The translations under genes and the position numbers were made by a program. Shown piece by piece: positions 10,163 through 36,147 of a DNA stretch of 64,000 bases. The notes beneath the pieces were generated by a model. It did no database searches. It saw nothing but the letters and a program-made list of their open reading frames with translations, and had not been told where the DNA came from. Within the stretch, counting starts at the first letter, position 1; the number at the start of each line of letters is the position of its first letter. Source of the stretch: Malassezia japonica (Eukaryota > Basidiomycota > Malasseziomycetes > Malasseziales > Malasseziaceae); NCBI RefSeq assembly GCF_029542785.1, contig NC_083377.1, positions 477,330-541,329 of the forward strand, given 5' to 3'.

Positions 10163-11638
10163 ATGTCTGCTTTGCCGTATGAACGCGATGCGGAAATGGT
10201 CATCAAGCACTTCCTCAAGGAAGTCGCCGACATGCAAAAGACACGCCGCCTCGATGACCATTCCTTCTCTATGTTAGTCAATATCGAAAAAACACTCCTC
10301 TTTAAGCTGTACGTGGACTCGCTCATGCAGCATCGACCGCGTTCGCATCCCGAATGCGAACCAGATCACGTCGCTAGTCACGTCGCTCAACATCACGCTG
10401 GGTCGTAGGATGTACTGCCACCTAATCAAGAGCTTTGTCAGGCGCAAGGGTCCGGGGGCGCTGGGCAAGAAGGGTACGTCGCACCGGCCAACGTAGAACA
10501 TTTTCACCTGCAGCTCCAAGAGGTTATCATTTACAACGCCGAGTTCACGCTCAGCGGGATGGAAAAGAGGGTACGTCGCCACGCTCACCCAGTTCCAAGG
10601 CCACACAGAAAGCCTAGACGACTGGACGACGTCGGTGGATTACATGCGCAAGTTTGAAATCGTCGGCGTTTTCTACCGCGTCAAGGGCTACAACCACCTG
10701 GACGACAGTAACGTGGCCAGGGTGCGAACCCTCAGCGAATCCGAAAAGAAGATGCTCGAGCTCCACTTTGATGCTGTCATGGCACAGAGCGGCTACCAGC
10801 AGTTTCTCGACGCGCTGAACAGTGCTAGGGCTACCAAGCACATCCCGATGCGCGATTTGGCCCGAGAACTGTGCATGAGCCCAGCGCGTATGCAAAAAGT
10901 GTACGTCTCCCTCGCGTGCTGATGCGCAGGTTTCAGGGATTCGAGGACCCCACGGACGACGACATTTTCGATCTCGCCGAGTACTTCAAGCTGTACGAGA
11001 ATCCGGGCGTGGTCGACAACATCGTCTTTCACGCATTCAACTCGACCGCTGCATCATTCAAGCACTATTGCCGTTCGTCGCTAAAGCTCACCCAGACCCC
11101 GTCATGGGCCAGTTTCGCCAGGTCATGAAGCGGGACCTCGACAAGATCTGGGAGGCGTTTCAGCAGATTGTAGGTTGAATGTTGCTCACACCAGTGTCCT
11201 GACTCGATTCTGGGAACCAAGTCCTCGCACACGTTTGTCATGCGGCTGCCGGGGTGGAACACGCCGGGCGTAAAGGTGATGGCCGCCGCACCGTCTCTCA
11301 AGTGCCCTACGGACTTGGGATTCCGCCAGATTGACAACTACACCGGCCCCGTGATCAAGCGGCACCGTACTGAAGAGGAAAAGGGCAAGGACGTCAAGAA
11401 GGAGGAGCCAAATGCTACCAATGCGCTTCCTGTGACTAATCCTGAGTCTATGGAGGTAGAGGAAGTGCCCAGCAATCTCAAGGCCGAGACTAGTGAAGTC
11501 AAGGTGCCCTATGATGTCAAGGAGGAGCCTAGCCAGGTCAACGCGCCGTCTCACGATATCAAGGAAGAAGACGACATCAAAGAGGTCATCAAGAACGAGA
11601 AGGGAGAATCGGTTGAGGTTATCTATATTTCGGATTAG
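10163..11638 (+). CDS. Family A two-module HTH-like protein, GC-rich copy with SUMO-motif tail
   Basis: Seven exons, 443 aa. Introns: 10309-10330, 10474-10496, 10571-10592, 10901-10929, 11073-11095 and 11170-11194, in phases 2,1,0,2,1,0. I do not recognise the protein. It consists of two similar halves; the second HTH-like segment is IPMRDLARELCMSPARMQKV. After the second half a charged tail of about 115 aa carries repeated psi-K-x-E sites (VKKE, VKEE, IKEE, IKNE) and ends VEVIYISD, like a SUMO-interacting motif. Unlike the other copies it has core-like GC content and short, consensus micro-introns. It sits beside POP4, so it may be the founder of the family. A nuclear regulatory role is a guess from the HTH-like and SUMO features. 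Confidence 0.75.
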
Positions 11639-12005
11639 CCTACTGATAGCTTGCGTGGCTCATGGAGCTTGCACGTCCAAGTCTTTTGCTGTCCAATTCG
11701 GCTCGCCCTGGCGTAAAGGCGAGGCCATGTGGACCCACGTGATGGGGATTGTCCAAAATTGGGCCGAATTAGCCAAAAGGTACCTCCACATGTGTCCGTC
11801 GAGAACATGGCGCACCTTGCCCCAGCGCATGATTGGGTACCAAACAACTTTCAAAGCATAATCTGCTCCTGAATCAGACGTTTTCCAATACATACTGGCA
11901 TACGGGTAGCTTTTGAATATATTTGCACAGCACAAGTCAGACCCCAACGCATCCATATGTATATATATAGTCTCTCCCAAGATGTTCCATTTCCTTGTCA
12001 TCATT
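11639..12005. other. Intergenic, A+T-richer spacer
   Basis: No supportable gene. It holds the promoter region of the small gene at 12006, with a TATATATA stretch near 11958-11967. The sudden fall in GC marks the left edge of the first accessory block. Confidence 0.5.
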
Positions 12006-12386
12006 ATGCCTGCCCCTACGAAGGCACCTCTCCACCAAGAACAAAACGATGGACCTGCTTTTGATTTTGAAGGCTCGATTCCACCTGGAGTCGTGGGCCT
12101 TGATTTTGATAATTCAACGTACAACGTGGAGCTCTACATGCAGGATGGCCAAGAAATGATGAGCATTGACGTGACCGTTCCTTATCTCTTTGACAAGAAC
12201 GATGAAAACCGCGCGCCTTCTACGGATGGAGACTCTAGCAGTCGTGGACGCGACACAGGGGGCAACGGATCCCACGACGATTCCGCCAGTGCACAGCAGC
12301 GTGCGGACAGGGGTTCTTCTGCTCCTCGTGTTACCGATGGCAATGATGTGGCTGCTGACTCACCGATGAAGAAGCACACACTCTAA
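12006..12386 (+). CDS. Small acidic protein (family B), unknown function
   Basis: An intronless ORF of 126 aa starting at ATG 12006, after a pyrimidine-rich leader; the open frame runs upstream, but this is the first ATG with a plausible leader. The protein is acidic and low-complexity at the C-terminus (Ser/Asp/Gly-rich). Its one ordered-looking part is a beta-strand-like segment MMSIDVTVPYLFDKN. That segment resembles the C-terminal strand of the family A gene at 34953-36147 (KISITVTIPYSRSN). Similar small proteins lie at 30835-31293 and 53497-53937. There is no signal peptide or membrane segment. A partner or decoy of family A is possible but is only inference. Confidence 0.6.
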   Translation: MPAPTKAPLHQEQNDGPAFDFEGSIPPGVVGLDFDNSTYNVELYMQDGQEMMSIDVTVPYLFDKNDENRAPSTDGDSSSRGRDTGGNGSHDDSASAQQRADRGSSAPRVTDGNDVAADSPMKKHTL

Positions 12387-12639
12387 AATTGTCCGGATCG
12401 GATGTTAGATGGATCAGGTTATGGCGACAAATAGTGTTAACGAGTCAATCGTTCTAATGGAGAGCCTCTGTAGCACTGGAATATCCATGGGAAATTGCGT
12501 CAATAGACCCATGTTACTCTTTTGTGGCGAATTATTGAGCTATAGTAGGGTTCTTCAAATGTAGTCAGTCATAAGGTTTAATATGAGCTTCTCCATTCAT
12601 TTCCTTCCTAGTTTCAAAAACTTGTTCCACTGGTCTACT

Positions 12640-13802
12640 TTAAGGCATCGGTACAAGCTCCCCATGGATCGAGATATTGATCTCATGGCCATCATTACGT
12701 GGTATAATTATGGCCGAAACGTAGTGACAATACATCTCCAAGTATGTATTGGGAGCCTATTGTCAGATATGCCTTAAGTGACGTACATGATGGACGAATT
12801 CATTCCAAAGGTAAATTGCATTCCTCTTCAACACATGACGTAGCTGAATCATAATGGGGTCTGAGTCAGAAGCAGATACATGCCGCAAAATTCATCCATT
12901 GTCTCCTGACAACCCGTGCTAAAGGCATTCATCACACAGTTATCAATTATTGCAGCGTTGTGATGTAGTTGAAAGAAGTCCACCATTTTAGAGATATCAC
13001 TTTCACTGGGACTGTAGGTCCCATCAAGGCTGTTTATAAGTTACTTCTCGGAACCACATACATTTTGGCAAGCGTAGAAACTTCTAGGTTGAGTTCTTTG
13101 GCCATTTTTTCGATTGGAATGTTACTGTCCAGAAAAGCAGTCCTCAGGTTGAGAAAGTATGCAAGGTAGAGCCACCGAGCAGCAGTCTGGTCATACTCAT
13201 GTACAAGGTCAACGGCATCTACTTCTGGGATACAATCCCAGCTGGTATTGCCCCTGTTCACTCCTTGGAATGAGATAGCAAAGACTTGGTTATGTCTCAT
13301 GAAATCGAATTCACATGTCCAATTTTTAAAGAGCTCGTCTTTGTAATTTGACTGTAGTTAAATATACAGTCTGAAACTCACTTGGTCAAGGAGCTGGGTA
13401 ATGATATTTTGAGCACAAACCATCAGGGTGCAGTTCAATTCGATTGAAAGCAATTCTTAAATTAGCAATGAAAAGACGGACCTGGGCCACAGAGTAATAC
13501 TTGTCCACTTCTCTGCACTAGGCTGTTGAAAATGCGACTGATGAAAGCTTCGCTGTACGACAAGTTCAAAGTGTACCATATGTGCTGTCGTTTAGCAAAG
13601 TCGGGGAGGTATTGTCCGACCAATCTAGAAGTAAGCCGCATTGGCTGAGGACTCACATCTCGCTAAGTTCCTGATCGCTGATTCTCAGAAGCTTGCCAAG
13701 ATTATGGTGATCCAGTTTCCTTTTGTGCTGCTCATCTCTGATGGCTTGGACATAGTGCTTGATCGTGTCGCTGGAATCTTGCTCGTACGATGTACTGGTC
13801 AT
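12640..13802 (-). CDS. Family A two-module HTH-like protein
   Basis: Seven exons on the minus strand, 329 aa, ATG at 13802-13800. Introns (plus coordinates): 13625-13656, 13456-13481, 13352-13381, 13030-13061, 12861-12883 and 12757-12786, phases 2,1,0,2,1,0. The fifth is GC-AG (GCATGT donor); a GT donor in frame is not available. The first HTH-like segment is LDHHNLGKLLRISDQELSEM, the second IPIEKMAKELNLEVSTLAKM. Each half ends in a strand, HNQVFAISFQG and HEINISIHGEL respectively. Introns are 23-32 nt, longer and less uniform than in core genes. Every splice keeps the frame, so the gene looks functional. Confidence 0.75.
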
Positions 13803-14143
13803 GAAAGGTAATTTGGTTTAAGGGAAACTCGTCAATTTCATAAAAGAAAGATATGATAACATAGGCACAGCCTCAATAAGGGGCTTCCCTTATGCAGAAA
13901 CCATACTCTTTCTAGGCATACATCTATGCATACCCCTTGCTGTTATTCAGTATGATGTGGAGGCCTCCATAGTTCATTGGACATCACCTGTCTCGCAAGA
14001 TGCTGTCCTCTTACAGCCATGGTTCCGCTGGTCTATTATTTTTTTTTTCGATCCCCACTGTTGAACCACTATGATACCATGTATGATTATGAGTCGTATC
14101 CGCTTCATAGGAAACTCAGAGGTCGGTTGAAACCACGAGTGGT
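13803..14143. other. Intergenic between two family A genes
   Basis: About 340 bp, A+T-rich, upstream of the gene ending at 13802 and downstream of the gene ending at 14144. No gene is supported. It contains CATACATCTATGCATACC near 13916, resembling other ATGCAT-rich family A upstream regions. Confidence 0.4.
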
Positions 14144-15331
14144 TCAATCTAGCACTTTTGTTGAAGGAATATGAGGCAGTTTCTTGAGTTCTCCTTCGAT
14201 GATAATGTTGATCATGCGACCAACAGTATCAGGCACTTGAGTTGCAATAACATGAAGGTCTACCTTCTCCATTCGTGAGTTTGGAACCAGGCATTAGATA
14301 CTCAGTGAGCACTTACAGTTCGAACAAACTCGTCCCAGATGTAATCGACATTCCTCTTTAACGTGTTGCGTAACTGTACCATGACGGGATCTGTGTAAGG
14401 TACGGAAAACGTACGGCAAAAAAAATGGAATAAGTCTCGTTGTCGGTTGTCAAATGCATGAGCAACATAGTTTCCAACGATCGCTGGATTCCGGTTCAGT
14501 TCGAAGAAAGTGACAAGCTTAAATATGTCGCTTTCATTTGGGATCGAAGTGCCATCGATGCTAATGAATGAGCGGCGTGCACAGAGAACGCACATCTTTT
14601 TGAAATAACAACTTTCGAGATCAAGTTCTTTAGCCACCATACCAAGCGTCTTAGCAGTCATGGACAAGCCATTCCTTAGGTTTATGAGAAAAATCCAATA
14701 GAGTATCCGAGAAGTAGCCTTATCATATTCTGCCTTGAGGGTATCATGGTCCATTTCGAGTACGTTTCCACTGTATTCCCCGTTCTTGGTACACCCTTGA
14801 AATAGGATAACAAACATCTGGTCTTGTCGCATGAAATCGATATTGCAGATCCAATTATCTTTGAAATTGTTTTGATCATTTGGCTGGAATGAGCTTTCAC
14901 ACCATGGCGTACCTGCGTATGCACTTGGCACAGTATCTCAGAAGCACGTGTCAAAAACAAGCAGTTGATTTCAGTCAAGAGTAGCTCTGGTGTGAGTCAT
15001 CCATACACGTACCTGGACCACAAAGTGATGCCCTTCCACTGCATTGAACAAAGCTGCTGACCAGCTGACTACAGAATCGATTATCCAAGGATATGCTAAA
15101 CGCGTCGATTGTATGCCGTAGAAGGATGGGGTCGGGGGATGTGGACCCGTCTATTCTACGAGGTAAGCTTGTGCTTTAGACATACATGTTATTCAACGTC
15201 TCCTCATTCATCCTCAGAATCCTGGCCAGTTCCAAGTTACTAATATTTTGTTTTTGCTGTACATCCTTAATGGACTGGAGATAGTGCTGGATAATAACAC
15301 GCGAGCTTTGGCTGTCTGAAGAAAGGACCAT
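14144..15331 (-). CDS. Family A two-module HTH-like protein
   Basis: Seven exons on the minus strand, 331 aa, ATG at 15331. Introns: 15156-15185, 14987-15012, 14884-14912, 14561-14593, 14391-14414 and about 14267-14316, again phases 2,1,0,2,1,0. HTH-like segments are ISNLELARILRMNEETLNNM and AKTLGMVAKELDLESCYFKK. The first half ends with the strand DQMFVILFQG and the second with MINIIIEGELKKLP. The last acceptor could be 3 nt further on without changing the frame. It lies head-to-tail with the copy at 12640-13802, as a tandem duplicate would. It is followed on the right by a gene-free region and the A+T-rich core. Confidence 0.75.
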
Positions 15332-15857
15332 GGATTGAAATAAAGAGTAGGGGAAGACTTCGTTTCAAAGTAACACAAAACCAGAGATTAGGAACACAGC
15401 CATAACGGGACATACTCCCATGCCAGGCAAGCATCCTTCTCAACTTGCATATTTCTGCACGCCCCTTGCTGCTCTCATGTGCTGGTGTGGAGTATGCTCA
15501 AGTTCCTTGGACCCAATACGCTTCGAGTCAAAGTTAGATAAGACGAGCCTTGCGAAACTAACGCCAGCATTGAGGGCATCACTGGTTTATTCGGACAGCT
15601 GCGCTGTACCAAGCATCGCTACGTTGTGGACAAGTTGGCGCCAGATTTTGTTTGCATCAATATCTCGGCCTACAATCGAGTGGAAACTTTCAGTAGTAGT
15701 TCTATATCTTCACTGAAGCACACACTCATACCAGTCTTACACAGAACCCGTTCGGAATTCGTGCAAAGTAGTTGCCTGTACAGACCCTTCATCGTAGAAC
15801 ATGATTACCAATCCAAGAACCAGAAGGGCGACCCTGGACGGACTTCTGACTTTTCAA
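15332..15857. other. Intergenic, no gene supported
   Basis: Upstream region of the family A gene starting at 15331. Short open frames exist (for example 15420-15716), but they lack start context, homology to neighbours or coding-like composition. GC content falls steadily toward the A+T-rich segment to the right. Confidence 0.5.
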
Positions 15858-16326
15858 AAACTTGAATAAATAAACCCCATCAAAGATATTACATTATGTA
15901 AATATATTCATTGACGCATTACAAAAAGAATCTTGAAAACCTCCCGACAATATAAAACAACAAATTTATTATTCAAATTTAACATTTATAAAATACATAT
16001 ACAACATTTTGTTTTCTTTTCAAAATAAAATATATTAAATAACTGATTGTCATGCTTCTAAATTGCAAATACAAATTAAAAGAATTCATAAAATAAAATA
16101 AATTGAATAATTGTGTTGCGATGTATTTATTGATAATCAATATTTACACGAATTTCAAATTAAGTTTTATAATTTTACAATATAATTGCATTAAATTTTG
16201 GAATTATTCTTATCTTAGTGAATTATTACTCGCTTTTGATATGTGTTATTTCACCATGTTGTTGATTAATGATTTAAATAATGCAAAAATGTTATAGAGT
16301 AGATATTTTATGCTCTATTGTGTCTA
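15858..16326. other. Extremely A+T-rich gene-free core, candidate centromere
   Basis: About 470 bp made almost wholly of A and T (for example ATTATGTAAATATATTCATT and AAATTTATTATTCAAATTTA), in a window whose core genes are strongly GC-rich. It contains no supportable gene and abuts the SWI1 stop codon. Published work on Malassezia describes short regional centromeres with a roughly 0.5-kb A+T-rich core; this segment matches in size and character. Its distance of about 48 kb from the chromosome end would make the chromosome acrocentric. An origin of replication or a simple intergenic A+T island is the alternative. Confidence 0.5.
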
Positions 16327-17740
16327 CTACTTTGTACTTAACAGTGCCGAGTCTGACCACCAGTCGCCGTCGCGGCCAGCCTGACGGGTGGAGGTATCTT
16401 CGCGGCTTAGGAATGACGACTGGTCAGATACATTTTTGCCGTCATAGGAAGTGAAGTCCAAAAATTGTACATCCCAATTCTCATTTGGATTGCCATCATT
16501 TTGGACAGAAGAGAGAGCACCTTGCGGCGACTCATACAGACCTTGGACATCTTTCATCCCAAGGTCGAGCATGTCTTGGAAATCGCCCGCAATTCCATAA
16601 GGTGCATTGATCAATGCAAAGACAGCGGCCTCTGTGTTTCCGGATGAAAAGACCGAGTATTCATCCACAAGGCTGCCCTTGGGGCTTGCTTGATTTTCCA
16701 TCGATTTTGACTTGGATGTGTGCTCATCCATAGCGATCAACTCATTCCAAATCTTCTTGACAAATTCGATTGGCGAGTTCTTTGACAGCTCCGTGTATTG
16801 GGCCTGCTCCTGATCAAACTCTTCTTGAGTTCGCTTGAGAGCTTCCGCGAGGTGATCTGGCGAAGTGGTAACCATCGGCGATCCTGTCCTGGTCATAGGC
16901 GTGACTGTCTTTTTGGAATCGACGTCGGGCGTCTCACTGAGTGGCGCTGATGGTGTATCAGTCTGCTTGCCCTTGAAGATCTTCGTCTTGGTCCCACTCT
17001 TGGTACTTTCTGTAGTCTTTGGCGAGCTCGTTCCAGTGATCTCAAAGTCCTCATTAAGATCACCAAGCTTGGCCCGTTTGTTGAGGGGCGATTCGACGTT
17101 GAGCGAGCGCTTCGCAGCTTCCTCTTGAGCCTGCTTGGCGCGCGCAGCCTTTTGCGCCTGTGCCATAGCTTGTGATGCTTTGGCCACAATTTGCTGTGCA
17201 AGGTTGTCGTCGTTCACTCGAACAAAGCCAATGCACCGCGTCATTTGAGTTTTGAGCTTTTCCAAGTCAGTGAGCCGCAAGATACATTGCCGCTTAGGAA
17301 CTAGAGCAAGCTGGTCGTCAAACATGTAAATCATGATCTTGACGCGCTTTGCTGGTTCAATATTACCAGTCATGGCCAAGAAAGCCGGTAACAATGCAAC
17401 AACAGTTGCCTTTAAGGAGACCAGCTTCTTAATCTGCTCCAGAACCTGGGAACGTTCGGTTTCTGACATGCTTTCAATGATAGGAAGTTTTGGTCTTGAA
17501 GAAGCCAAGCTAGCATCCACGCGCTTCAGCACCGTTTCAGCATCTTCCAGCATCTTGGGCGTGACCTTTGTCTGTGTCTGCTGGTTCTTTTCCGGCGAAG
17601 CTGTAGGGGCTTTAGGTGCCACCTGTGGCGGCCGTGCCTGCGCCTGTTGTGCAGCCATCTGTTGTATCGCAGGCCAATTTTGCCCGGCATTCGACTGGGC
17701 CTGTACCGGCATGGCTGTCGCGTTCTGCACAGGCCTTGGC

Positions 17741-17772
<32 letters not shown>

Positions 17773-19416
17773 CTTATGCTGCTGCAAAAGCTGAGCAAGC
17801 TGCTCTGGTTTGAGCTTCAGCTGGGCAAGCTGTTCTGCTGTGATAGGCAAGTCTTGGCGAGTAGCCGAATTCATCGGCTGCGCAGGCCGCTGCTGCATTT
17901 GTGCAAAAGGCTGTCCCTGAACCATGTTGAAGTTGGGCCGGGGAGTTGTATTTTGCATTGCAGCGCCTTGCAAGCTAGGGGGAATCAGCGGGTTATGATC
18001 GCTCCGGCCAGGCATGGAAGTACTGGGTATTGGGTTGTCGCGCTTCACATTAGACATGCTCATCTGATGAAGCATAGCGCGGTTCCACACTTCTTCAAAT
18101 AATTCCAAGAAGGAGCGGTACACCTGCGCAATCTTTTGGGCAGCCATAGTCGCCTGTGGAGACTTGGCCATTGCCAGACCCAGCGTGACGGCGACGGTGG
18201 GCCACGTCCCCTTTTGGGTGACCATCTTGCTTCCTCCCAGTGCCTGCACCACGGTGAATAAATGATAGAGGTCCACTTCGCGCCCATCCACAACGGGATT
18301 CGAGTGGAAAGACTTTCCGTGGTGATTCATCAGATCGGTCAGTGCCCGCTTGAACTGTTCCGGGCTCGGTGTCATTACCGGCGGATTCGACGTATTCTGC
18401 ACAGGCTTTTGCACGCCCATCGATTGATTGAAAGGCTGAGCGCTGAGCGACGGGCTGCTGGTGCCCACCTGGTTTTGATTGTGCATGTTCATCATGGGGT
18501 TCTTGGCTTGCGCACTAAAGTTGACGCCAAAGTTGGGCACATTTTGCTGCACTTGCGGCTGAACCATGCCCATCTGCGGCGAGTTGACCTGCTGCTGAAC
18601 ATTGTTCCGCTGCTGTGCCAGCTTTTGGACCAACGCTGTCTGTACGCGTGTCAGCTCTTGGTGCGCGCGCTGCAGTGCTTGGCGCTCGTTATCAGGGATC
18701 GCCGTAGCCAGCTTCTGTTCCACTTCGCGGATCCGCTGCTGGATCGTGCGAACGAATTGCACACCCTGTGCCATATTAGGCTCTTGTTTCGCTTGTCCCA
18801 TGTTGTCCTGCGTAGGTATCGCATTCATCTGTGGCTGAGGCACCGACGTCGAGGCCGGAGTCTGCATCATCATCGATGGCTGCTGTTGCACCGGCTGCTG
18901 CTGCATGGCCTGCTGCTGCATCGACTGCAAGAGCGCAGCATACTGCGCGTTCGGCACGACGTTCGGCTGTGTCTGGGGCTGTTGTACCGATTGCTGCTGC
19001 TCGATAATCGCACGCAGCTGGACTAGCTGATTGGGCGTGAGCATCCCCGCCTTGGCCTTGGATGCCATATCGGCGAGTATAGCACTCATATTGTTCTGTG
19101 CCGGTGGCCTGACCATGTTGGCGGCGTTCATCGCGTTAGGCATACTCGCCATCGGCGCAGGCTGTGCCTGCTGTGGCTGCAACATCATGTTCTGGGAGAA
19201 CTGATTGGTGGGCATAGGTTGCTGTACAGATGAGTTCTTTTGGTTCAGAAGCGTTTGGAGCTGCTGCGCAGAGAGACTGTTTAGAAAGTCTTGCTGCGAC
19301 TTTGGGAAGGCCTGGACATCGTGCTGCGGCTGCATCGCCTGCTGCTGCTGTAACAGCCGTACGATCTGCTGCTGCACCCCAGGATCAAACTTCCCTCCTG
19401 GCGTAAATCCCGACAT
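16327..19416 (-). CDS. SWI1: SWI1-like ARID subunit of SWI/SNF
   Basis: A single exon of 1029 aa; ATG at 19416 (a GTG codon precedes it). The N-terminal third is rich in Gln, Met and Asn. A clear ARID/BRIGHT domain lies near residues 350-460: PVVDGREVDLYHLF, then VQALGGSKMVTQKGTWPTVA, then VYRSFLELFEEVW. A pure poly-Gln run near residues 545-560 comes from CTG/CAG repeats around 17735-17775. The combination of Gln-rich sequence and ARID fits Swi1/ARID1, the subunit that helps target the SWI/SNF remodeller. MED15 was considered for the Gln-rich part, but it has no ARID. The C-terminal half has charged, helix-rich segments. Confidence 0.8.
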
Positions 19417-19745
19417 CACGGGACGCTTGGGTTCTGGTCCAGCTCAGCGATCTAACGATAGTGCCAATCGCGGTGGTGGCCTGCAGGTCGCTTTTAGAGC
19501 CCTGTGCGGGATACGCAGCTCCACATTGTGTATTTCCACGACAGCCTATGGGGACGGCATGCAGCTATGGCGGGGTATGTCGTCATGCCAGGCAGCATAG
19601 GGAAGGCGCGGCACAAAGAACTAGAAGTAGGTGAAGGAAGAGTGCACAGAGAGCATAGCTTGCGTGGGCCCATAGAGTGTTCGGCATGCCGGGGCGAAAT
19701 CGGCTACGCGGCTGTGACGAAGCGGCCGGCGGATCGTCTGTCTGA
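19417..19745. other. Intergenic between SWI1 promoter and INO80F-like stop
   Basis: About 330 bp containing the SWI1 promoter and 5' leader. I see no further gene or clear element. Confidence 0.4.
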
Positions 19746-20161
19746 TCACACCGTGTTTTCGAGTTCCAGGCCGATATCCATTTCTGGCTCCTCCTCCTTC
19801 GGAGCCGAGGCGGTGCTCGGCGCGGATTCCGTAGCCGGAGGCTTGGCCGTCGTCATCGTCCGCATATCTGCCTCCATGCGCTCATAAAGAATTCTGCGTT
19901 AGCCATTGAACATACGCGCGCTCGAGACGCAGGCGCTGGATGTTGCGCTTGATGCGCAGCGTCGTCACCTGGAGCTTGTCGTTTTCCTGCGTCAGCTGTG
20001 GCACGTACACCCTCGATCTCGCGCACTTTGCGCTTCAGCTCCTTATACTTTTGGCGGTACTTGGTCGCATCGCTCTGGATCGCAACAGACGACAGATACG
20101 CCTTGGACTTTTGCTTCCCGCTCGGCGGGACGCTCTGCATCGGCGGTGCTCCACTCGCCAT
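19746..20161 (-). CDS. INO80 complex subunit F-like coiled-coil protein
   Basis: Three exons on the minus strand, 123 aa, ATG at 20161. The introns are 19987-20008 and 19894-19915, both exactly 22 nt. Splicing assembles a continuous coiled coil: DATKYRQKYKELKRKVREIE, then GENDKLQVTTLRIKRNIQRL, then RLERAILYERMEADMR. The pattern resembles the TFPT/INO80F domain of the INO80 chromatin remodeller. An acidic, Pro/Ala-rich tail follows and ends in LELENTV. Without splicing the frame is lost after REIEG. The subunit assignment is from the motif pattern and length; another short coiled-coil nuclear protein is possible. Only 58 bp separate its ATG from the THS1 ATG. Confidence 0.65.
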
Positions 20162-20219
20162 GGTGAGAGACACGTTCGAAGGTGGCACGTGACTCGACTG
20201 GCGCTTTTGTTCTTCTACG
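20162..20219. promoter_or_regulatory. 58-bp divergent promoter with CACGTG
   Basis: The whole space between the start codons of the INO80F-like gene and THS1. It holds TTCGAA and CACGTG (20186-20191). Two promoters, both leaders and any regulatory sites must fit in it or extend into coding sequence. Confidence 0.5.
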
Positions 20220-22430: not shown

Positions 22431-22436
22431 ATGTAG

Positions 22437-23681: not shown

Positions 23682-23709
23682 CGTGGAGAAGTGGAGGTTC
23701 GCTCCGGCG
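23682..23709. promoter_or_regulatory. 28-bp divergent promoter
   Basis: Only 28 bp lie between the PTPA and GatB start codons, with two GTGGAG hexamers on the plus strand. GTGGAG also occurs in the 42-bp promoter at 27994-28035. Part of the promoter must lie inside coding sequence. Confidence 0.45.
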
Positions 23710-25417: not shown

Positions 25418-25429
25418 ATCCCGTCCACG

Positions 25430-27341: not shown

Positions 27342-27363
27342 GGTGGAAGTGCTGACTAAGCAT

Positions 27364-27993
27364 CTACAGATGGCGCCGCGCGGCAGCGCGCAGGCGCGTG
27401 TCAAAGGAGGGCGAGCGGATCGGGTCGTTGGGCTCCTGGAAGGGGTTCATCATGACCTGCATTAGGACGAAAACGTACCTTGACCCAGAGCTCCCACACA
27501 TCCATCAAAAAGTTGCGGATGCCTTCCTCGTGTTTGTGCTCGTGGAGAATGATAAACTTGGCGTCTGCGTCAGCAAAGCAACGTACTGCCAGGCACCAGG
27601 AACGCAGAAACGGTCCAGTCGTTGATGCGGTCGAGCGACTTGAGGTAGCTGCGTCAGTAGCGCGACGACGTACACGGAGCTGTCCACAAACTGCTTGTCC
27701 TCCAGCACGTCCAGCGAGCCATGCGCAATCATCTGCAAAATATGGTGCTCGTCCGCAGCCGCGCCGCGGTTGTCCTCGGGGGCAGGGCTGCTCGCCGCAG
27801 GACTCGTCGCGCCTTGGCGCGCTAGCGGCGCGGTCCACGTATTAAAGGCGGTGCTGAATCCAAAAATTCCGCTATTCCGCGACTGCTCACCACTTGGCCG
27901 CGTCGCTGCTGGCGCACTCGGCGCACGCGCGCTCAAGTCCGCCTCGTACAGCAGGTTGTCGCGCGTCCCGACGATGCAGAAGTAGTACGGCAT
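27364..27993 (-). CDS. TRS20: TRAPP subunit Trs20/sedlin (TRAPPC2)
   Basis: Four exons on the minus strand, 186 aa, ATG at 27993. Introns: 27649-27673 (25 nt), 27565-27586 and 27457-27478 (22 nt each). The protein begins MPYYFCIVGTRDNLLYEADL and, after an inserted Pro/Ser-rich loop longer than in yeast or human, continues HHILQMIAHGSLDVLEDKQF, VYLKSLDRINDWTVSAFL, KFIILHEHKHEEGIRNFLMD and NPFQEPNDPIRSPSFD. This is the longin-like sedlin fold. TRAPP complexes act as GEFs for Ypt1/Rab1 in ER-to-Golgi traffic and autophagy. The spliced sequence is needed to recover the conserved core. Confidence 0.92.
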
Positions 27994-28035
27994 CTGGTGG
28001 AGGCGGAGAGGCGGAGGAAAGTGGAGGTGTCTTTG
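27994..28035. promoter_or_regulatory. 42-bp divergent promoter
   Basis: The full gap between the TRS20 and Myb-gene start codons. It is purine-rich on the plus strand, with GTGGAG occurring twice (GGTGGAGGCGGAG and AGTGGAGGTG). Confidence 0.45.
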
Positions 28036-29274
28036 ATGGCACGACCAGCGCCGCCGGCGGGCGAGCTGCCGGCCCTCGAGCGCGTCCAGGTGCAGCTGGG
28101 GACGCTGCAGAGTGCGGGACTCGCGCAGCGAAATGCACAGGAAAAGGTTCTGCACGCTCTCGATACCGAGCAGCAGATGGTCGAAGACGCCCTCGTGCAG
28201 CTCGCCATGAGCGAGCGCCAGGCAGCGAGCGACCGCGAACTCGTCCTGGCGCCGGCTACGCAGCAGGTGCGGTACGCGCTGCCACTGATGAGCCGCGACG
28301 CACTGGCCTCGATGCCGCTCCTGGCGCAGCACGCGGCCCAGCGGCGAGAAACACGCGCACTGCTCTCCACGCCACCGTGGAGCGCCCAAGACACCGAGTG
28401 CCTCCGTATCGCCGCGGAAAACGAGCGGGTGCGCGCCATGGCGCTCCAATCGGATCCCGGCTCGCTCGACTGGGAGCGCATCGCGATGCAGGTCCCATTT
28501 CATACCCCGCTCGACTGCCGCACACGCTGGACATTCTTTGAGCGCCCAGGCATCAACCACTCGCGCTGGAGCACCGGCGAGAAAAAGGCGCTCGCAGAAC
28601 ATGTATCACAGGATAAGGATGTGTCGTGGGAAGAGGCCGCACAGGCGCTCCAGACAGGCAGGTCGGGGTACGCAGCACTCGAGACCTACCAGCGGGGCAT
28701 CAAGCCGGCGATCGACTGGACGCCGGAACGCGACGCGGCGCTCCTCGCCGCTGTCCAGGCCGTGGGGCCGGACTGGAAGGCGGTCGTGCAGCACCTCGGC
28801 TTTCCTGCGTTCTGCGCCTCGTTGTGCCACCAGCGGCACAGCAAGCTCAAGAGCACCGCGCTACGGCTGGGGCGCTGGAGCGCCGAAGAAGATGCGGCAC
28901 TCCGCGCGGCCGTCGGCGAGTACGGCTGCGACTGGAAACGCGTCGAGATCCACGTGCCGGGCCGCAGCGGACAGCAGTGCCGCGAGCGATGGGTGGGGCG
29001 CCTGGCGAATATCCCAGAGGGCGAAACGCAGGCGACACGGCGTGCATGGCTTCCGGAAGAGGACGCTCGGCTGCGTGCCTGCGTGCATTCGTGCAAGACT
29101 TGGGTCCAGGTCGCCGAAAATGTGGGCGGACGCTCGGACAAGATGGTGCGCGAACGCTGGATCCTGCTGCGGCGGCGCGACGAGGACGAGGCGCGGCGAC
29201 AGCGTGGCGAGCCTGTTCCTCCACGCAAAGGGGGGAAGCGGCCAGACGAGCCGCTCGACAAAAAGGGTGCGTAG
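28036..29274 (+). CDS. Multi-Myb-repeat DNA-binding protein, SNAPC4-like
   Basis: A single exon of 412 aa from ATG 28036. The N-terminal part is a helical coiled-coil region. It is followed by at least four SANT/Myb repeats: PWSAQDTECLRIAA..., RWSTGEKKALAEHV..., DWTPERDAALLAAVQAVGPD, RWSAEEDAALRAAVGEYGCD..., and AWLPEEDARLRACVHSCKT. The repeat series and N-terminal helical part resemble SNAPC4 (SNAP190) and related Myb proteins that act on snRNA and Pol III promoters. The tail is basic (PPRKGGKRPDEP). Another Myb-type factor such as a Bas1 or Reb1 relative cannot be excluded. Confidence 0.7.
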   Translation: MARPAPPAGELPALERVQVQLGTLQSAGLAQRNAQEKVLHALDTEQQMVEDALVQLAMSERQAASDRELVLAPATQQVRYALPLMSRDALASMPLLAQHAAQRRETRALLSTPPWSAQDTECLRIAAENERVRAMALQSDPGSLDWERIAMQVPFHTPLDCRTRWTFFERPGINHSRWSTGEKKALAEHVSQDKDVSWEEAAQALQTGRSGYAALETYQRGIKPAIDWTPERDAALLAAVQAVGPDWKAVVQHLGFPAFCASLCHQRHSKLKSTALRLGRWSAEEDAALRAAVGEYGCDWKRVEIHVPGRSGQQCRERWVGRLANIPEGETQATRRAWLPEEDARLRACVHSCKTWVQVAENVGGRSDKMVRERWILLRRRDEDEARRQRGEPVPPRKGGKRPDEPLDKKGA

Positions 29275-29555
29275 ATCTACGTATGGGATACGGAAATGTG
29301 CATTTTGCGGTTCATCCGCGAGGACTACATTGTCGGTGCAAATAGCGCGATGCGTGGCGCCAAATAGCGCGACGTGTGCTCGGTAGAGCCCAAGGAGCGC
29401 AAGCGCCTCCACAATGCCGGCGACGGCAAGGGGTATACGTTAGTATGCATGGGATTGTGGAGTATGCCATAGGCGGTCGACCATTTTCGGTCGCGGCTGT
29501 GCCTAGCGAACCACCTTGTTGTAACACTTTCGTACGGCTGTACCCTTTCACACTC

Positions 29556-30704
29556 ATGCCGCGTACTTCGTATGCACAAGTTGCCCGCGAAATTATCGAA
29601 CAATACCTCAATGCCATACGAGCGGAGCAGCACAAACGCAAGCTCAGCTTTTCTGAGCTGGGCCAGCTTCTCAAGATCAAGGAGAAACGGTTGCAAGATA
29701 TGTACGTCCGAATCTCTGCTAATTTAGAATGGATGGGGCGAGTGCGCCTTCGTTTGAGGAGCAAAAGCGCATATGGGACACGCTCAACTTGGGTCTCGAT
29801 AGCGCCTTTTTCAACCGCATCCTCAGCAGTCATATTCACCGAAGCAAGCAAGCTATACTACGTGGCCAAAGTTGGTACTATCACTCATGTCAGAACTGCC
29901 CTATATCCAGCTGAGCTGGTCGCTCATGCTGTGTGCCCCCTACATTATCCACCAAGTGTATACCCAGGTGTGTTTCAACGGCGCTTACACTAGACCAATC
30001 TGCAGCGTACCTTTCCCGGAAAGTGGACTTGTGACATTGACTTTATGGAGAAAAACCGTACCTATGCCCTCACGTTTCAAGGAACTAGCGCAGACAACAC
30101 TAGCCAAGGCCTTCCAACGGCTGACAATGAAGCCCTCGAGATCGAGTATGATAAAGTTGTGGCCCGGATACTCTACTGGAATTTCTTTGTGAACCTAAAA
30201 GGCGCGTTAGCAGAGTGTACCTTGCCAATGCACCGGGTGGCGAGCAAGCTCGACCTTGAAGTGCCTTCTCTTGCAAAGATGTGCGTAGCCCGAAACTCAT
30301 GTGCAGTATCAATGGCTCACCCAACCCTAGCCGGAGTGACATCTCCAAGCTCGTCTCCTTTTTCTGTCTGAATCGTGAGGAGGCGATCATCAATAACCAC
30401 GTAACTTTTGCCTATTACATCAATCTCGAGCGGTTATTTGAAGAGTTTTGTGGTATGTAATACGTCTCTTATGCATACCCCATCATGATCCAGCTACGCC
30501 GCACACTAAAGAGGAATTCCGGCTACATTTGGAGTCAAGTCTCTCAAAATGTACGTGGAGATGCTTATCTAACACGAGGCACCAGACACTTTCCTTGAGT
30601 CGTCTGAACACTATGTATCGGTCGAAAATGACCCTGATGACGGGATCAAGATCATTATAGAGGGGGAGCTTGAACGACTTCCGCAATGCACCATAGAGGA
30701 ATAA
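29556..30704 (+). CDS. Family A two-module HTH-like protein, one non-canonical acceptor
   Basis: 331 aa if all six introns are removed: 29702-29727, 29871-29893, 29968-29993, 30281-30306, 30453-30476 and 30551-30578 (phases 2,1,0,2,1,0). HTH-like segments are LSFSELGQLLKIKEKRLQDM and LPMHRVASKLDLEVPSLAKM. The strands are NRTYALTFQG and GIKIIIEGELERLP. The fifth intron would need to end in ...TTATGCAT rather than AG, because the next AG breaks the frame. Without splicing, a TAA follows at once. Either this copy is newly broken or the site is a rare GT-AT acceptor. All other exons are intact. It is the first gene of the second accessory block. Confidence 0.65.
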
Positions 30705-30834
30705 TAGCAAGTCTACACACGTCCTAGCCCAAGTGTTGACCGATTTGAAGCTCTATCAAACTACTCAAGAGACAATATCCAATCACCAGCTTGACACTAT
30801 TGCACCTTTCCATTCGTACTCCAGTCGGCGGAAT

Positions 30835-31293
30835 TCAAGGCTTGTTCTTGTTCTCCGATCCATCAGGAACCGCACTCGTGCTCGCACGAGGGGCAGGGTG
30901 GGAGTTGGTCGCGTTCGGCTGCGCAGCGGCAGACGTTTCACAAGCGCTAGTGCCCGAACTAGGATCATGAAAGAGGTTGGTCGCGTCAGGCTTTGCAGAA
31001 GCAGGCTCTCCGCGAGCCTTGTCGCGCTCCGCCAGCCATTCTTCAATACGACGCTTCGTGCGCTCGGCGGTCCGTGCCATGTACGGCCTGCGGAAGCCTG
31101 GGTACCCGCTCCAGAATCCAGGAGGGTACTTGTTAGGCATTTCCATCTCGATGATGTTCACCTCCTCACCATTCTCAATAACGGTTTCTTCTTTGAAGTG
31201 GATTTCGAATCCATCATCATCGTCTGGGTCAGGGAACATCCGGTCCAAGAATTCCCGAGTTTCAAAGTCATGTACGGAAAGTGGGTTTGACAT
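30835..31293 (-). CDS. Small acidic protein (family B), unknown function
   Basis: An intronless ORF of 152 aa on the minus strand, ATG at 31293. The N-terminal half is acidic (DPDDDDGFEIHFKEET), followed by a strand-like EEVNIIEMEMPNKYPPGFW. Then comes a basic helical stretch (RPYMARTAERTKRRIEEWLA) and a Ser/Ala/Pro-rich tail. Size, composition and position next to family A genes match the genes at 12006 and 53497, though sequence identity is weak. There is no signal peptide or membrane segment. A TTTATAAATAAAG-like A+T stretch about 50 bp upstream could be the TATA region. Confidence 0.55.
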   Translation of the reverse strand: MSNPLSVHDFETREFLDRMFPDPDDDDGFEIHFKEETVIENGEEVNIIEMEMPNKYPPGFWSGYPGFRRPYMARTAERTKRRIEEWLAERDKARGEPASAKPDATNLFHDPSSGTSACETSAAAQPNATNSHPAPRASTSAVPDGSENKNKP

Positions 31294-31714
31294 GATAACG
31301 AGGTTGGGGCGGGGGTGAAGACGAGACTGTAGGGCAGTGCTTTATTTATAATGTACAGCAAACATGTCGATGCGTACGTGGTATGACATTCAAGACGAGA
31401 TCATTCTCGGAAAGAATGGGCGTCCAATGAGAGTGAGCCTCCACCATAATAGGGAGCGGCAGGGGTGTACTGCATATCGTAGTAATTTGCTAAAACATGT
31501 ACCCTTTGGGTTAATGAGTGAGCCTCCACATCAATATCTCAAGCCAGTGAATGCGACTGTCTCTTCGACAAACTTGACTCTCGATAGTAAAGAAGAATTA
31601 GCGTTCATGAAACAAGTAACCTTTATTACTGCCGACTTATCCCGGTTTGTCTTGTGTCACATCTGGACAAAGCATTGGACAGCGCTATGAAATGTGTGGC
31701 ACCCAATAAAGAGC

Positions 31715-31823
31715 GAGCCTCCACCTCAACGGAGAGCGCCAGGGACGTACATACATACCTATGCATGCTAACGTGGTGCATGTTCGTAGCAAGTATCCAT
31801 TGAATAGTAGTGGCTGTGCTTCC
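31715..31823 (+). repeat. Dispersed promoter-type repeat, copy 1
   Basis: Shares with 36351-36454, in the same order and orientation, GAGCCTCCAC/CAGCCTCCAC, a GGCAGG/GCCAGG block, the element GCATGCTAACGTGGTGCATG and GTAGTGGCTGTGCTTCC. It lies 60-170 bp upstream of the family A ATG at 31884. Confidence 0.65.
31763..31782. promoter_or_regulatory. GCATGC-AACGTGG-GCATG element upstream of a family A gene
   Basis: GCATGCTAACGTGGTGCATG has near-palindromic GCATG arms around an ACGTGG core. It lies about 100 bp before the ATG at 31884. Related copies are at 33720-33739 and 36395-36414. A regulator binding site is inferred from repetition and position. Confidence 0.5.
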
Positions 31824-31883
31824 GAGCAAATTACAAGCAGAACCCTACCTTCGTTTCTCCCCTCACCTACTGCGCTGTAACCC

Positions 31884-33094
31884 ATGCTCCAGACCCCGTT
31901 CAAAGAAGTCCTTGGCTCCGTTATCGAACACTATCTCAAGGCTATAAAATTTATCCAGCTCCAAAGAAAGCTTAGCAACTTGGAACTTGCAAAGGAACTG
32001 AGAGTCGACGAGGGGTATTTGAGGGGCATGTGCGTTGTTGACTCTCGCTGCTAACCTATAGAATGAGTGGGGCGACACGTCCTGGTCCTGAAGACCTACA
32101 ATGTGTACAGGAGACGCTTGGATTGGCTTTTGATGAAACGTTCCTCAGTCGGCTCATTAGCAGCCATCTTCACTCAAGTGGTGAGATTCTATTTTGCGGG
32201 CAAGGTTCGTACAGTGACAACTGACAACAGAGATGCTTCTCGCCACACTTAGCTGGACATTGCTTAGCTGTGCCTCGGATATTCTTGACCAAGTGCAAAC
32301 CCAAGTAAGTTCTTGTCTTGACACTCATACTAGTCTAAATGCTTAGGTCCACTCCCGGATGCTTGGGTTTGCGACATCGATTTCATGGTGCAAGATCGTA
32401 TGTTTGCCATTGTTTTCCTGGGTGCCTATCATAAGACGGATCGTGATAGTTCAGCTCCCGAAACCGACTACGAATCACTCGAGCTCGAATATGATAAAAT
32501 CAGCGCTCAAATTTTATACTGGGTCTTCTTTATGAACTTGAAAGTTGCCCTTTCTAAGAGCAAAGTGTCGATGGCCAAGATTGCTAGCGATCTAGAATTG
32601 GACTTTCATCGCCTTGAAAAGATGTAAGTTACCTGAAAGCTGCTAATTAGTAGTATTGAAGGTACCACCAAACCGAGTGAAAACGACATCTTGAAGTTGA
32701 TCTCCTTCTTCCGGCTGAACCATGATCAATATATTATCAAAAATAATGTATCGATCGCATACTACATACGCCAATACTGGCCATTTCAAAAATTTTGTGG
32801 CAGGTATTTCATTCCTAACACAGACCCTTTTATTGTTCAGCTACGCCGTACATTGCAAAGGAATGCCAGTTATATCTGGCATGCATTTTCGGAACAGGTT
32901 TGTGTATGCCGAATTTCTGACCTTGGGTTGTGGATGGGCAAATCGAAAAGGGTTCTAACCACGTCTCTGTCGAACAAGTATCCCGTGGAGACGGTCATGG
33001 TATCAAGATTGCGATTGAAGGAGCACTTGTTACAATTCCAAGATGTCCACAAGTAGGCCTTCTTTCAAGTCGATAAAAGTGAAGGTTATATGAT
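31884..33094 (+). CDS. Family A two-module HTH-like protein
   Basis: 339 aa after removing introns 32030-32061, 32205-32230, 32305-32333, 32624-32650, 32800-32823 and 32898-32950 (phases 2,1,0,2,1,0). The fifth intron has a GC donor (GCAGGT), at the same position as the GC-AG intron of the copy at 12640-13802. The sixth, at 53 nt, is the longest intron in the family here. HTH-like segments are LSNLELAKELRVDEGYLRGM and VSMAKIASDLELDFHRLEKM. The strands are DRMFAIVFLG and GIKIAIEGALVTIP. The frame is intact throughout. The 3' end overlaps a weak minus-strand ORF (32995-33198). Confidence 0.72.
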
Positions 33095-33198
33095 TTTGCA
33101 GTCTTAGCGATATAGTCCTCGATATGCCTGCCTTCACGGGAAGGTCCGGCCAAAGGGGAAGGGCGCTGGGGCTCGCGGTTACTCGGGGAGGAACTCAT
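32995..33198 (-). CDS. Short ORF, possible truncated family B gene
   Basis: 67 aa starting MSSSPSNREPQRPSPLAGPS on the minus strand, overlapping the 3' end of the convergent family A gene. Its upstream leader is pyrimidine-rich, as in family B genes, and it lies just beyond the relocated HBS1 tail. The family B gene at 53497 lies in the same relative place beyond the true HBS1 tail. The body is short and unlike the others, so it may be a truncated remnant or chance. Confidence 0.3.
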   Translation of the reverse strand: MSSSPSNREPQRPSPLAGPSREGRHIEDYIAKTAKSYNLHFYRLERRPTCGHLGIVTSAPSIAILIP

Positions 33199-33372
33199 AA
33201 TGGTAAGGAGAGGGAGAGGGATGGGGGGCGTCCTTTTATAACTTTCGTTTCTGCACCTCTTCGCAACGAGCCGAGGCTTCCGTTCCCTGGAACGAGGCCT
33301 GTGCGCTTGTTAGTAACACAGTGGAGATTCACCCAATAATAGCCCACCACCCTCGCTTGCGCACAGACGCGG

Positions 33373-33568
33373 TAGCCAATCCTTGGTATTTTCCGTGTGT
33401 CACAAATTCATATCGACATATGCAAGAGCTACATAGTTTATCCATGGGGTCTGTACGTGGAAATTCTCCGAGGAAATATTTCAGGCATAGAATGTGTCGA
33501 TGTCGCTCGGCGATCGCACAGCCGCACGTGCTAGTGAGCCTCGAGGACAATGCCCGCGGCGACCGTCT
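33373..33568 (-). pseudogene. Transplanted 3' tail of HBS1 plus its flank
   Basis: The reverse complement of this segment aligns almost gap-free with 52974-53167. It starts inside the last codons of HBS1: TVAAGIVLEAH and the stop are identical, differing only at silent sites. It continues through about 155 bp of 3' flank, including the stretch encoding MDRLSS...CRYEF. It is clearly a relic of a segmental copy, in inverted orientation and 20 kb away. Nothing else of HBS1 is present. Confidence 0.85.
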
Positions 33569-33719
33569 TGTCGTGCAGGCAGTGCTCTAATAATGCTTTG
33601 CAAACATGCTAATGCACACTTGGCGTTAGAAATAGGTTTAGACCAAGCTTTGATAGAAGAGACGCCCAATGAGATAGGTACTTCCACGTAGGGATATTGA
33701 AGAGGGCGTGTCTAAATAT

Positions 33720-33739
33720 GCACGCCGACGTGGCGCATG
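33720..33739. promoter_or_regulatory. GCAYGC-ACGTGG-GCATG element upstream of a family A gene
   Basis: GCACGCCGACGTGGCGCATG, a variant of the element at 31763-31782, about 76 bp before the family A ATG at 33816. The core ACGTGG and both GCA/CATG arms are kept while intervening bases change. Confidence 0.5.
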
Positions 33740-33815
33740 CTCAGTAGCTAGGCCTCTTCTCATGTGAATATTGTGACCATACTGCCCTTGGAGTGGACAT
33801 GAAGACTTTACCACG

Positions 33816-34943
33816 ATGATCTACAACCCATGCCATCAAGATGCTCGTGAAATCGTTCATCACTACCTCCAAGCTGTAAAAAAAGAACAGCGCAAAAGAG
33901 GTCTGAGTAACCGCAAGCTGGCCAAGGCGCTTAGAATCAAACTGAAACGACTAAGAGACATGTGAGTCTGAATCAACGTAGCTTACGTTCAGTATGAATG
34001 GCACCGTAGCCCCAGACTTCGATGAACGTGAGCGTTTCTATGACATTTTGGGTTTGTCGTTCAGCAAGGTCTTTTTCAATCGTCTGCTTCGAAGCCATAT
34101 CCAACGAAGCGGTCACATGCCTCTTTGTGGCCCTGAATCACTCTTTGTTGAGCTGAATTGGTCATTGATGACATGCGCTCCCGAGATACTGGCTCAAATG
34201 CGCGCCCAGGCTAATCCACTTTGTACCCACCCGGATGACTGGACGTGTGATATTGATTTTATGGTTCAAGATCACACCTTTGCCATTACATTCCAGGCTA
34301 TCAAGACGGACAGAGTCGGTGCCCCTGTGTCTAACATCAATGGTCTTTTATTCGAGTACGACAAAATCACGGCACAAATGTACTATATGACGTTTCTTTG
34401 GAACTTGAAGAGGGCCTTGTCTAAGACCGGTTTGTCATTGGAGACTGTGGCCAGTGACCTCGAACTCGACGTGGATTCTCTTGCAAACGTGTATGTGCTA
34501 CGAATGTATTACTCATACCTAGTATTAACGGAACGTCAGCGCCAAATCAAGTGGGCATCTCCAAACTCGTCACCTACTTTCAATTAAACGAGAACCGGGC
34601 TCTCATTTCAAACTGTACTGAGCTTGCCTTTGACATACACCAGTACAAGTTGTTCCAAGACTTTTGTGGTATGCTTCACCTCTTACACAGATCCAGTCAT
34701 TGTATCGCTGCGTCGTGCTCTGAGAAAGAATCTTATTTACCTGTGGCATGCATTCGCGGAACTGGTACGTACAGGCTGCGTAACTAAACTCTGGCACCAG
34801 ATGCATATGTGGACAAGGCCATACATTATGTGTGGACAAAGCAGGTCCCTTGTAATGAGGGCAACGAGGTCAAAATTATTATCAAAGGAGATGTTCGGCC
34901 AAAACCACAAACCTGTCCAGTAGATCAACTTTTTAGTATATAA
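33816..34943 (+). CDS. Family A two-module HTH-like protein, two introns lost
   Basis: 337 aa if introns 33962-33992, 34491-34522, 34669-34690 and 34765-34793 are removed. The second and third introns of the usual six are cleanly absent (LCGPESLFVELNWSLM and QMRAQANPLCT read straight through). HTH-like segments are LSNRKLAKALRIKLKRLRDI and LSLETVASDLELDVDSLANV; the first strand is HTFAITFQA. The last intron would have to end in CTCTG, not AG, to give APDAYVDKA...VKIIIKGDV. The next AG (34800) yields another frame that stops at 34923 and loses the conserved strand. The acceptor may therefore be a recent mutation. The stop lies 9 bp from the convergent neighbour's. Confidence 0.65.
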
Positions 34944-34952
34944 ACGTCATGA

Positions 34953-36147
34953 CTAACAAACGGTATGGGATTGGTTTTCCTGCTTAGCCCAGTCGCGCAA
35001 CGTTTGGTCCACTTCCAGAGGAGAGTAACCAGGTGGTGGCTGGGCTAGATGAAGAACCGGTCTCTCGCCTTCATACTTTAGAGCAAGACTAGGACTCACA
35101 GCGTTAGAGCGGCTGTAAGGAATGGTGACAGTGATACTAATCTTGTCCTTGGCAGTCTTCGATAGCCATCGTACCTGCACCCTGGCATTAGCTTGATCAA
35201 ATCCCGTTCGAGGGTTCTTGCTTATATCAGCCCAAAGCATATCCGGATGCCAAATTTTCTCTCGGAGGGAAATGATAATGGGATGCCCCAGTATCATTTC
35301 CTCCTCCAAGCCGACCATATCAGCAAGCACCGTACAAAGGAGGTAAGCCATACCCTTGCTGGAAGTGAACTTCAGAACGTGATCGAGAAGGGCGAGCTCA
35401 TGGTGATCTGGTGCAATTCGGGCAAAACATCTACGTTAGACATGACACGTACATCTCGTAAATCTTGTCAATAGAAAGACCAGTGTCTTGAGCCAGTGCC
35501 TCGGGCGACATACCCTCACTCCTCATGATGTTTCGAAGAGCGTAGGCAAAGGTCTGGAGAAACCTAAGTGCAATACGGCGACTGTAAGACAATATAGCAG
35601 CGATAGCAGGCGAGAGTTCAGGCGTAGTTCGACATCCCGGGCGGTTTGGCACAGTTTTCGCAATGGTATGAAGGACCATACCTTGAGCAGAAAACTTCTT
35701 TTCTACTACCAGTTCTTCATGAGGGATAGTCAGGCTTGCGCCACACTTCTTCCTAACCTTTTCAACAATATCCGACGAAAGCTCCTGGACTACGTCATCC
35801 ATGAGCAAATCATAATGAGATTCAGCTCCGACTGGTGTCAATCCCATCATGGTCCCGCACCAGACAACAAACATGAAGAGGAGCCCAGGAACCCACAGCG
35901 ACTGTGCACAGCTGACTAGGCACTTTACGACGTTGGTACTTTTGGGATTTTCGCCTCGAAGGACCCCCTCGAGCTGCTCATCGGGAACGCCATGAAGGGC
36001 ACCTTGCCTGAGGCGTTCTTCAGCATCAGAGCCAATTTTTCTATTGACTTCCTGTCGAAGGAAGTTTAACTCATCGTTCGCCGCACAGACCTCGGATTCG
36101 AAGGTATATCCCTTCTCTGGACGGGAAATGAGAGCCGAGGAATTCAT
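34953..36147 (-). CDS. Divergent family A member with a single intron
   Basis: Two exons on the minus strand, 390 aa, ATG at 36147; the intron 35431-35452 is exactly 22 nt. It is placed in family A because that intron sits in phase 2 directly after the second HTH-like segment (MSPEALAQDTGLSIDKIYEM). The following part, HPIIISLREKIWHPDMLWAD, matches DPVIVSLRRALRKNLIYLWH of the neighbour. A hydrophobic helix (LWVPGLLFMFVVWCGTMMGL) occupies the place of the helical segment after the first HTH; it could be a membrane segment. The C-terminal strand KISITVTIPYS resembles family B. The GC content is somewhat higher than in neighbouring copies. Confidence 0.65.

Follow-up and report, generated by a model that had tools for sequence, protein, structure and literature searches.

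The stretch of DNA of the skin yeast Malassezia japonica analyzed here comprises 64,000 nucleotides of contig NC_083377.1 (positions 477,330 to 541,329 of the forward strand, assembly GCF_029542785.1; hereafter the window on contig C8). Between positions 10,163 and 36,147 it features a family of genes that each encode two homologous units, one behind the other, and the exon structure of either unit matches that of the gene for cyanase (CynS) in the same fungus. An earlier note on this DNA had described seven genes of one plan. Two homologous units are clear in six of them, and the seventh (34953-36147) is kept as a tentative member.

Gene models and intron positions

All gene models were predicted from the sequence by explicit splicing of each gene (Table 1). 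In this way, the boundaries proposed previously for g10163, g12640, g14144 and g33816 were recovered, while g31884 ends at position 33076 instead of 33094. In the region 29556-30704, family sequence reaches its end. The seventh gene is alignable with the other members and gives an HTH_31 match below the cut-off; neither the unit-1 nor the unit-2 profile matches it, and its best genome match, to g33816, has an E-value of 0.31. In a genome search with five family queries and cyanase, which provides lower bounds for copy numbers, we found at least six clear copies in the window and u474 upstream of it, all on contig C8, as well as one further relative each on contigs C6 and C7.

Table 1. Genes of the two-unit family and the AT-rich core; coordinates refer to the window unless a contig is named
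Feature	Position	Strand	Description
g10163	10163..11638	+	7 exons, 443 residues, phases 2-1-0/2-1-0, all introns GT-AG; extra C-terminal tail
g10163 exons	10163-10308, 10331-10473, 10497-10570, 10593-10900, 10930-11072, 11096-11169, 11195-11638	+	
g12640	12640..13802	-	7 exons, 329 residues, phases 2-1-0/2-1-0; GC donor at intron 5
g14144	14144..15331	-	7 exons, 330 residues, phases 2-1-0/2-1-0, GT-AG; intron 6 acceptor shifted by 24 nt
g29556	29556..30704	+	introns 1-4 legible; intron 5 defective, possibly a pseudogene; later exons recognizable
g31884	31884..33076	+	7 exons, 332 residues, phases 2-1-0/2-1-0; GC donor at intron 5; nearest to the cyanase profile
g33816	33816..34943	+	329 residues; introns 2 and 3 lost from unit 1 with the frame kept; phases 2-1-0 in unit 2
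g34953	34953..36147	-	tentative, very divergent member; 390 residues; one phase-2 intron of 22 nt
u474	C8:474797-475956		full family copy with six GT-AG introns, phases 2-1-0/2-1-0, 1.4 kb upstream of the window
AT-rich core	15851..16350	n/a	500 bp with 21.4% GC; chromosome otherwise GC-rich

The introns of g12640, g14144 and g31884 interrupt codons 49, 97 and 122 in unit 1 and codons 218, 267 and 292 in unit 2, in phases 2, 1 and 0 in each unit, and g10163 follows the same phase order with introns at codons 49, 97 and 122 and at codons 224, 272 and 297. These four are the copies in the window with a full set of introns. Their unit 1 exons measure 146, 143 and 74 nt, those following the phase-2 intron of unit 2 measure 146 and 74 nt (143 and 74 nt in g10163), and exons 3 and 6 are 74 nt long in all four. 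The earlier note had counted five full-intron copies with a conserved 2-1-0/2-1-0 order. This holds for four, and for two of these, g12640 and g31884, only if intron 5 starts with a GC donor: the intron is then 23-24 nt long and in phase 1, while a GT donor leads to a phase-2 intron of 19-20 nt. The fifth copy, g29556, fails at the same intron. Its introns 1 to 4 are in phases 2, 1, 0 and 2, intron 5 is without an AG acceptor that would keep the frame and read-through meets a TAA codon; intron 6 and the last exon can be recognized by eye. Read-through of intron 5 in g31884 and g14144, where the frame is open, was considered and dismissed, since a phase-1 GT-AG intron occupies that codon in the cyanase gene, g10163, u474 and g33816. 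Compared with the other copies, g14144, g31884 and g33816 have their intron 6 acceptor displaced downstream by 24 nt, to a common in-frame AAG, and this is why GT-TG or GT-GG acceptors were discarded for these three copies. The 41 introns tabulated from seven copies and the cyanase gene are 22-53 nt long with a median of 26 nt. For Malassezia genes, very short introns are described in a review (PMC7426719).

Two further observations concern the family. The tail of g10163 (window 11351-11638) contains five [VIL]K.E motifs in 96 residues, compared with a mean of 0.49 in shuffled sequences (p 0.0002), and ends in VEVIYISD; the motif corresponds to the SUMO consensus. Close to the end of the window, a short piece (TPFKEV...VAKELD) in an AT-rich stretch at 61500-62300 resembles family motifs, and neither unit profile matched this suspected decayed copy (61.5-62.3 kb) at E≤0.5.

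Relationship of the two units to cyanase

A search of the M. japonica genome with PF02560 resulted in two exon matches that belong to a single gene on contig C6. This cyanase gene has introns of 23, 22 and 23 nt in phases 2, 1 and 0 at codons 46, 92 and 117, and its third exon comprises 74 nt. The spliced product is 100% identical over 156 residues to the NCBI cyanase of Malassezia japonica (P0002), in agreement with the splicing approach used. The three introns at aligned codons, the phase order 2-1-0 and the 74-nt exon are common to the cyanase gene and both units of the family. Under random placement, the chance of three introns landing on the three cyanase sites is P ~6e-8 per unit, and the coincidence is seen in both units.

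Fungal cyanase starts with a helical domain at the N-terminus, to which one helix and two strands are joined, according to the description of Tl-Cyn (PDB 6XGT; PMC7801690). In the family, the XRE-like N-terminal bundle of cyanase (CynS, EC 4.2.1.104, PF02560) has a counterpart in both units, and the helix starting with DP and the two strands have theirs in unit 2. The family differs from the enzyme in having two units per chain and a replaced catalytic arginine, in being far diverged and in matching no Pfam model of it. For profile comparison by hhalign, unit 2 was taken from seven copies and cyanase from 108 sequences, 12 of the 120 listed being left out with lengths of at least 180 residues. 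Unit 2 aligns with cyanase over 128 columns, from the helix-turn-helix (HTH) to the last strand and with DP on DP (probability 96.2, E 2.7e-9). The C-terminal part of unit 2 alone yields an E-value of 1.6e-4 and a score of 26.0, the maximum in 40 column shuffles being 16.2. Among the 120 cyanases, 56 were found at E≤0.01 with the unit-2 profile, headed by the enzyme of M. japonica itself (2.8e-8), and 30 with the unit-1 profile, in each case with 0 of 600 shuffled sequences. In the opposite direction, a whole-cyanase model matched five of nine family proteins at E≤0.0075, namely g31884 (4.4e-7), g29556, u474, g12640 and g33816. The earlier note had not recognized the family. Given the cyanase gene with its matching introns, phases and 74-nt exon and the 128-column alignment of unit 2, the genes are, as judged from sequence, almost certainly tandem-fused paralogues of the fungus's own cyanase.

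Several results weigh against this assignment. PF02560 matched none of five spliced proteins at E≤10. The whole-cyanase model, a hidden Markov model, gave E-values of 0.2-0.4 for g10163, g14144 and the C6 copy, which does not set them apart from the top value in 540 shuffles (0.25). Its matches in the family are concentrated in the HTH, and with a HMMER model built on the C-terminal part of cyanase alone no family member rose above the shuffles. The HTH of unit 1 can be aligned with that of cyanase (hhalign, E 2.2e-6), and the C-terminal domain of this unit, with a score of 8.7 and a shuffle mean of 10.2, is not recognized by sequence. When unit 1 was placed gap-free on cyanase exon 3, the fractions of shuffles reaching the score were 0.003-0.062 in seven rows; the corresponding fractions for unit 2 were 0-0.033 in six rows. 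The tentative assignment of the C-terminal part of unit 1 draws on intron anchoring and this weak gap-free similarity. An AlphaFold prediction for a partial chain (g33816 exon 2), for which the input alignment consisted of exon fragments and was partly misaligned, reached a mean predicted local distance difference test (pLDDT) value of 64.6. This low-confidence model contains two strands where S1 and S2 of cyanase are expected, and then the helices of unit 2.

A search of the PDB with the family profile gave 13 sequences, including 5uk3 at an E-value of 0.0057 and in the HTH only; its record speaks of an uncharacterised protein, which we take to be spider-mite cyanase. An exon-wise Pfam scan of contiguous frames returned no match above cut-off. 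A PCI or winged-helix domain, to which weak Pfam PCI matches (E 0.06-0.09) had pointed, was rejected because XRE models score far better.

The C6 copy is encoded opposite to the cyanase gene at a distance of about 2 kb and is a weak match (E 0.0135 with g10163 as query). Its unit 2 has introns in phases 2, 1 and 0, a last exon that starts with FGD as in cyanase and, taken alone, an E-value of 6.4e-5 over 125 columns with the cyanase profile. With the C6 copy as query, the gene on C7 was matched at an E-value of 0.0027; it contains phase-2 and phase-1 introns and an HP motif and is without the third intron, as seen by eye. A tree was calculated from 80 intron-anchored columns and 23 rows, i.e. 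the 14 units of seven C8 copies, the C6 and C7 genes and seven of the 120 cyanases, with g34953 left out. All seven unit-1 rows group together (support 67), as do the nine unit-2 rows (support 83); both clades are placed beside the Malassezia cyanases, and the two values refer to the clades and not to this placement. Since unit 1 and unit 2 form separate clades, the internal duplication preceded the spread of the family. The idea put forward in the earlier note, duplication of a three-intron unit before the spread, is thus supported by the tree and by the intron trio in both units. As the sequences show, a head-to-tail duplication of a cyanase-type gene with three introns in phases 2-1-0 gave a single reading frame, and the resulting two-unit gene then multiplied, mostly on C8 and also beside the true cyanase gene on C6 and on C7. 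Where similarity between the proteins is no longer detectable, the three introns that stayed in phase through the internal duplication take the role of a fossil.

Catalytic residues and possible functions

The catalytic arginine (R96 in the E. coli enzyme, R101 in Tl-Cyn) is replaced by Q, T, E or S in all 13 readable units on C8, and the glutamate that positions it (E104 in Tl-Cyn) is replaced in 12 of the 13 and kept only in unit 1 of g10163. Unit 2 of the C6 copy has Gly for Arg; unit 2 of the C7 gene keeps Arg and has Ala for Glu. For the fungal enzyme, it has been described that R101K abolishes activity and that E104D lowers it by 74% (PMC7801690). Because the arginine is replaced in all readable C8 units, cyanase activity is very unlikely, and we have high confidence that the C8 proteins would be devoid of it. 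The joint claim, cyanase origin combined with loss of activity, can be regarded as probable with good confidence.

Protein-level constraint remains in the family. In 21 of 21 pairs among the seven spliced copies, the proportion of nonsynonymous differences (pN, 0.32-0.56) is below that of synonymous differences (pS), which is saturated at 0.73-0.82, and 43 columns are invariant across five copies, one of them truncated. An enzyme fold under constraint from which the catalytic residues have been lost is also a feature of pseudoenzymes in general (reviews PMC5106787, PMC10211241). Among the matches listed in a search of the open-licence literature we found no description of a cyanase pseudoenzyme, and for Malassezia cyanase or cyanate and for fungal cyanase paralogues or duplications there was likewise no title on this family among those listed. 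With the assignment to cyanase, an apparently orphan gene family would turn into a legible case of enzyme-to-pseudoenzyme evolution. The protein database contained one relative at E≤0.01 (P0001), which stems from a metagenome; with g10163 as query there was none at E≤1, much shorter gene models being outside the length limit of the search. The family genes seem to be unannotated, and as the family seems to be missing from public protein sets, it would be invisible to annotation-based studies of M. japonica.

In cyanase dimers, pairing is through the C-terminal domains, and the active site is located between the dimers of the decamer (PMC7801690). As the dimers join C-terminally and only contacts between dimers create an active site, it is conceivable that each fused chain is the covalent counterpart of a cyanase dimer, a covalent dimer being the simplest outcome of head-to-tail fusion. 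Five such chains, whether of one kind, of several kinds or combined with true cyanase, might then close into a ring devoid of chemistry. Cyanase activity is believed to depend on the decamer. The ring might act as a scaffold, an anion sensor or a regulator of the true enzyme, and a fused inactive dimer could poison, tune or replace the cyanase ring. The role of the ring is hypothetical, and we put a scaffold or regulator mechanism forward only tentatively, as less likely than not.

DNA binding, which the earlier note had derived from the HTH-like segments, can no longer be deduced from them. Cyanases carry the same XRE-like bundle, with PF01381 or PF13560 annotated in many cyanase entries, and the net charge of the recognition helix, in itself a weak test, is positive in four of 14 family units and zero or negative in ten. 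The bundle of E. coli cyanase resembles DNA-binding domains but is not known to bind DNA; among the papers listed in a literature search on this point, none mentions cyanase. It is possible that single members bind DNA, for example through the first HTH of g33816. A new two-domain XRE-type DNA-binding family unrelated to cyanase, in which the bundle is merely common to both, is extremely improbable. XRE/Cro-type HTH regulators and MBF1 (HTH_3, HTH_19; PDB 2mez, 1utx) do possess an N-terminal helical bundle like that of each family unit, HTH_3, HTH_19 or HTH_31 exceeds the curated cut-off in three of the five spliced proteins, the best PDB profile matches are MBF1-like and phage-type HTH proteins, and PF02560 is without a match. 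However, such a family would share neither the three introns with their phases and the 74-nt exon of the cyanase gene nor a similarity that in unit 2 runs through the C-terminal domain, and it would be at odds with the FGD kept in the C6 copy beside cyanase and with the organism's own enzyme ranking first in the unit-2 search. Unlike in XRE/Cro regulators and MBF1, the recognition helices of the family are mostly not basic, and we know of no XRE/Cro or MBF1 protein with a cyanase-like C-terminal domain or matching introns. It is also unlikely that the proteins are cyanase-derived nuclear regulators whose HTH bundles have regained DNA binding. The presence of two such bundles in each chain, the net charge of +8 in the first HTH of g33816 and the motif-rich tail of g10163 are compatible with such a function, but a positive recognition helix is confined to four units and the tail to one copy, and cyanases carry the same bundle as enzymes.

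The remaining alternatives concern the state of the proteins. That the genes are decaying, functionless pseudogenes in an AT-rich chromosome region is quite unlikely in view of full frames over up to seven exons, of pN staying low where pS is saturated, of the invariant columns and of shifted acceptors that keep the frame; moreover, identity with the metagenome relative amounts to 75% in the first exon. Decay would account for the lack of an intron 5 acceptor in g29556, for the intron losses and acceptor shifts in certain copies, for a GC content at third codon positions of 0.45-0.59 in six copies compared with 0.73 in g10163 and for the fact that no family protein was found in NCBI sets. A different reaction on a small anion, still catalyzed by the units, could be read from a Cys that takes the place of the catalytic Ser in six of seven unit-1 sequences, provided that ..IDF is used as the guide for aligning the strand by eye. 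This alignment is without statistical support, and with Arg replaced in every readable unit and Glu in all except one, such a reaction is highly improbable.

Surroundings of the genes in the window

The nine centromere cores predicted for M. japonica are 497-598 bp long with 20.3-25.1% GC as reported in PMC7025860, and by length and GC content the AT-rich core in the window is likely to be one of this kind. Gene g14144 ends 0.5 kb from it and g12640 is located about 2 kb away. Because of this vicinity and the SUMO-type tail of g10163, one may speculate that cyanase, a housekeeping enzyme of detoxification, underwent fusion with itself and, deprived of its chemistry, gave rise to a chromatin protein family in a Malassezia lineage. 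We consider this most unlikely; if true, pseudo-cyanase rings would be novel nuclear scaffolds or DNA-binding proteins and form a class of their own.

The AT-rich core is adjoined by a frame of 1038 residues with ARID and fungal Med15 domains (16327-19443). An inverted repeat pair of 208 bp (33373-33580 and 52962-53168; 85% identical, 19.4 kb apart) has one arm between g31884 and g33816, and a direct repeat of about 500 bp (54257-54756 and 54995-55497; 79% identical) lies inside a coding-like region. An array of TTAGGA (not TTAGGG) extends from 63464 to 64000, i.e. to the end of the window, which is also the end of contig C8, and looks like a telomere. An LSO1/2-like frame (62785-63468; PF22048, E 1.3e-6) ends directly at this array.

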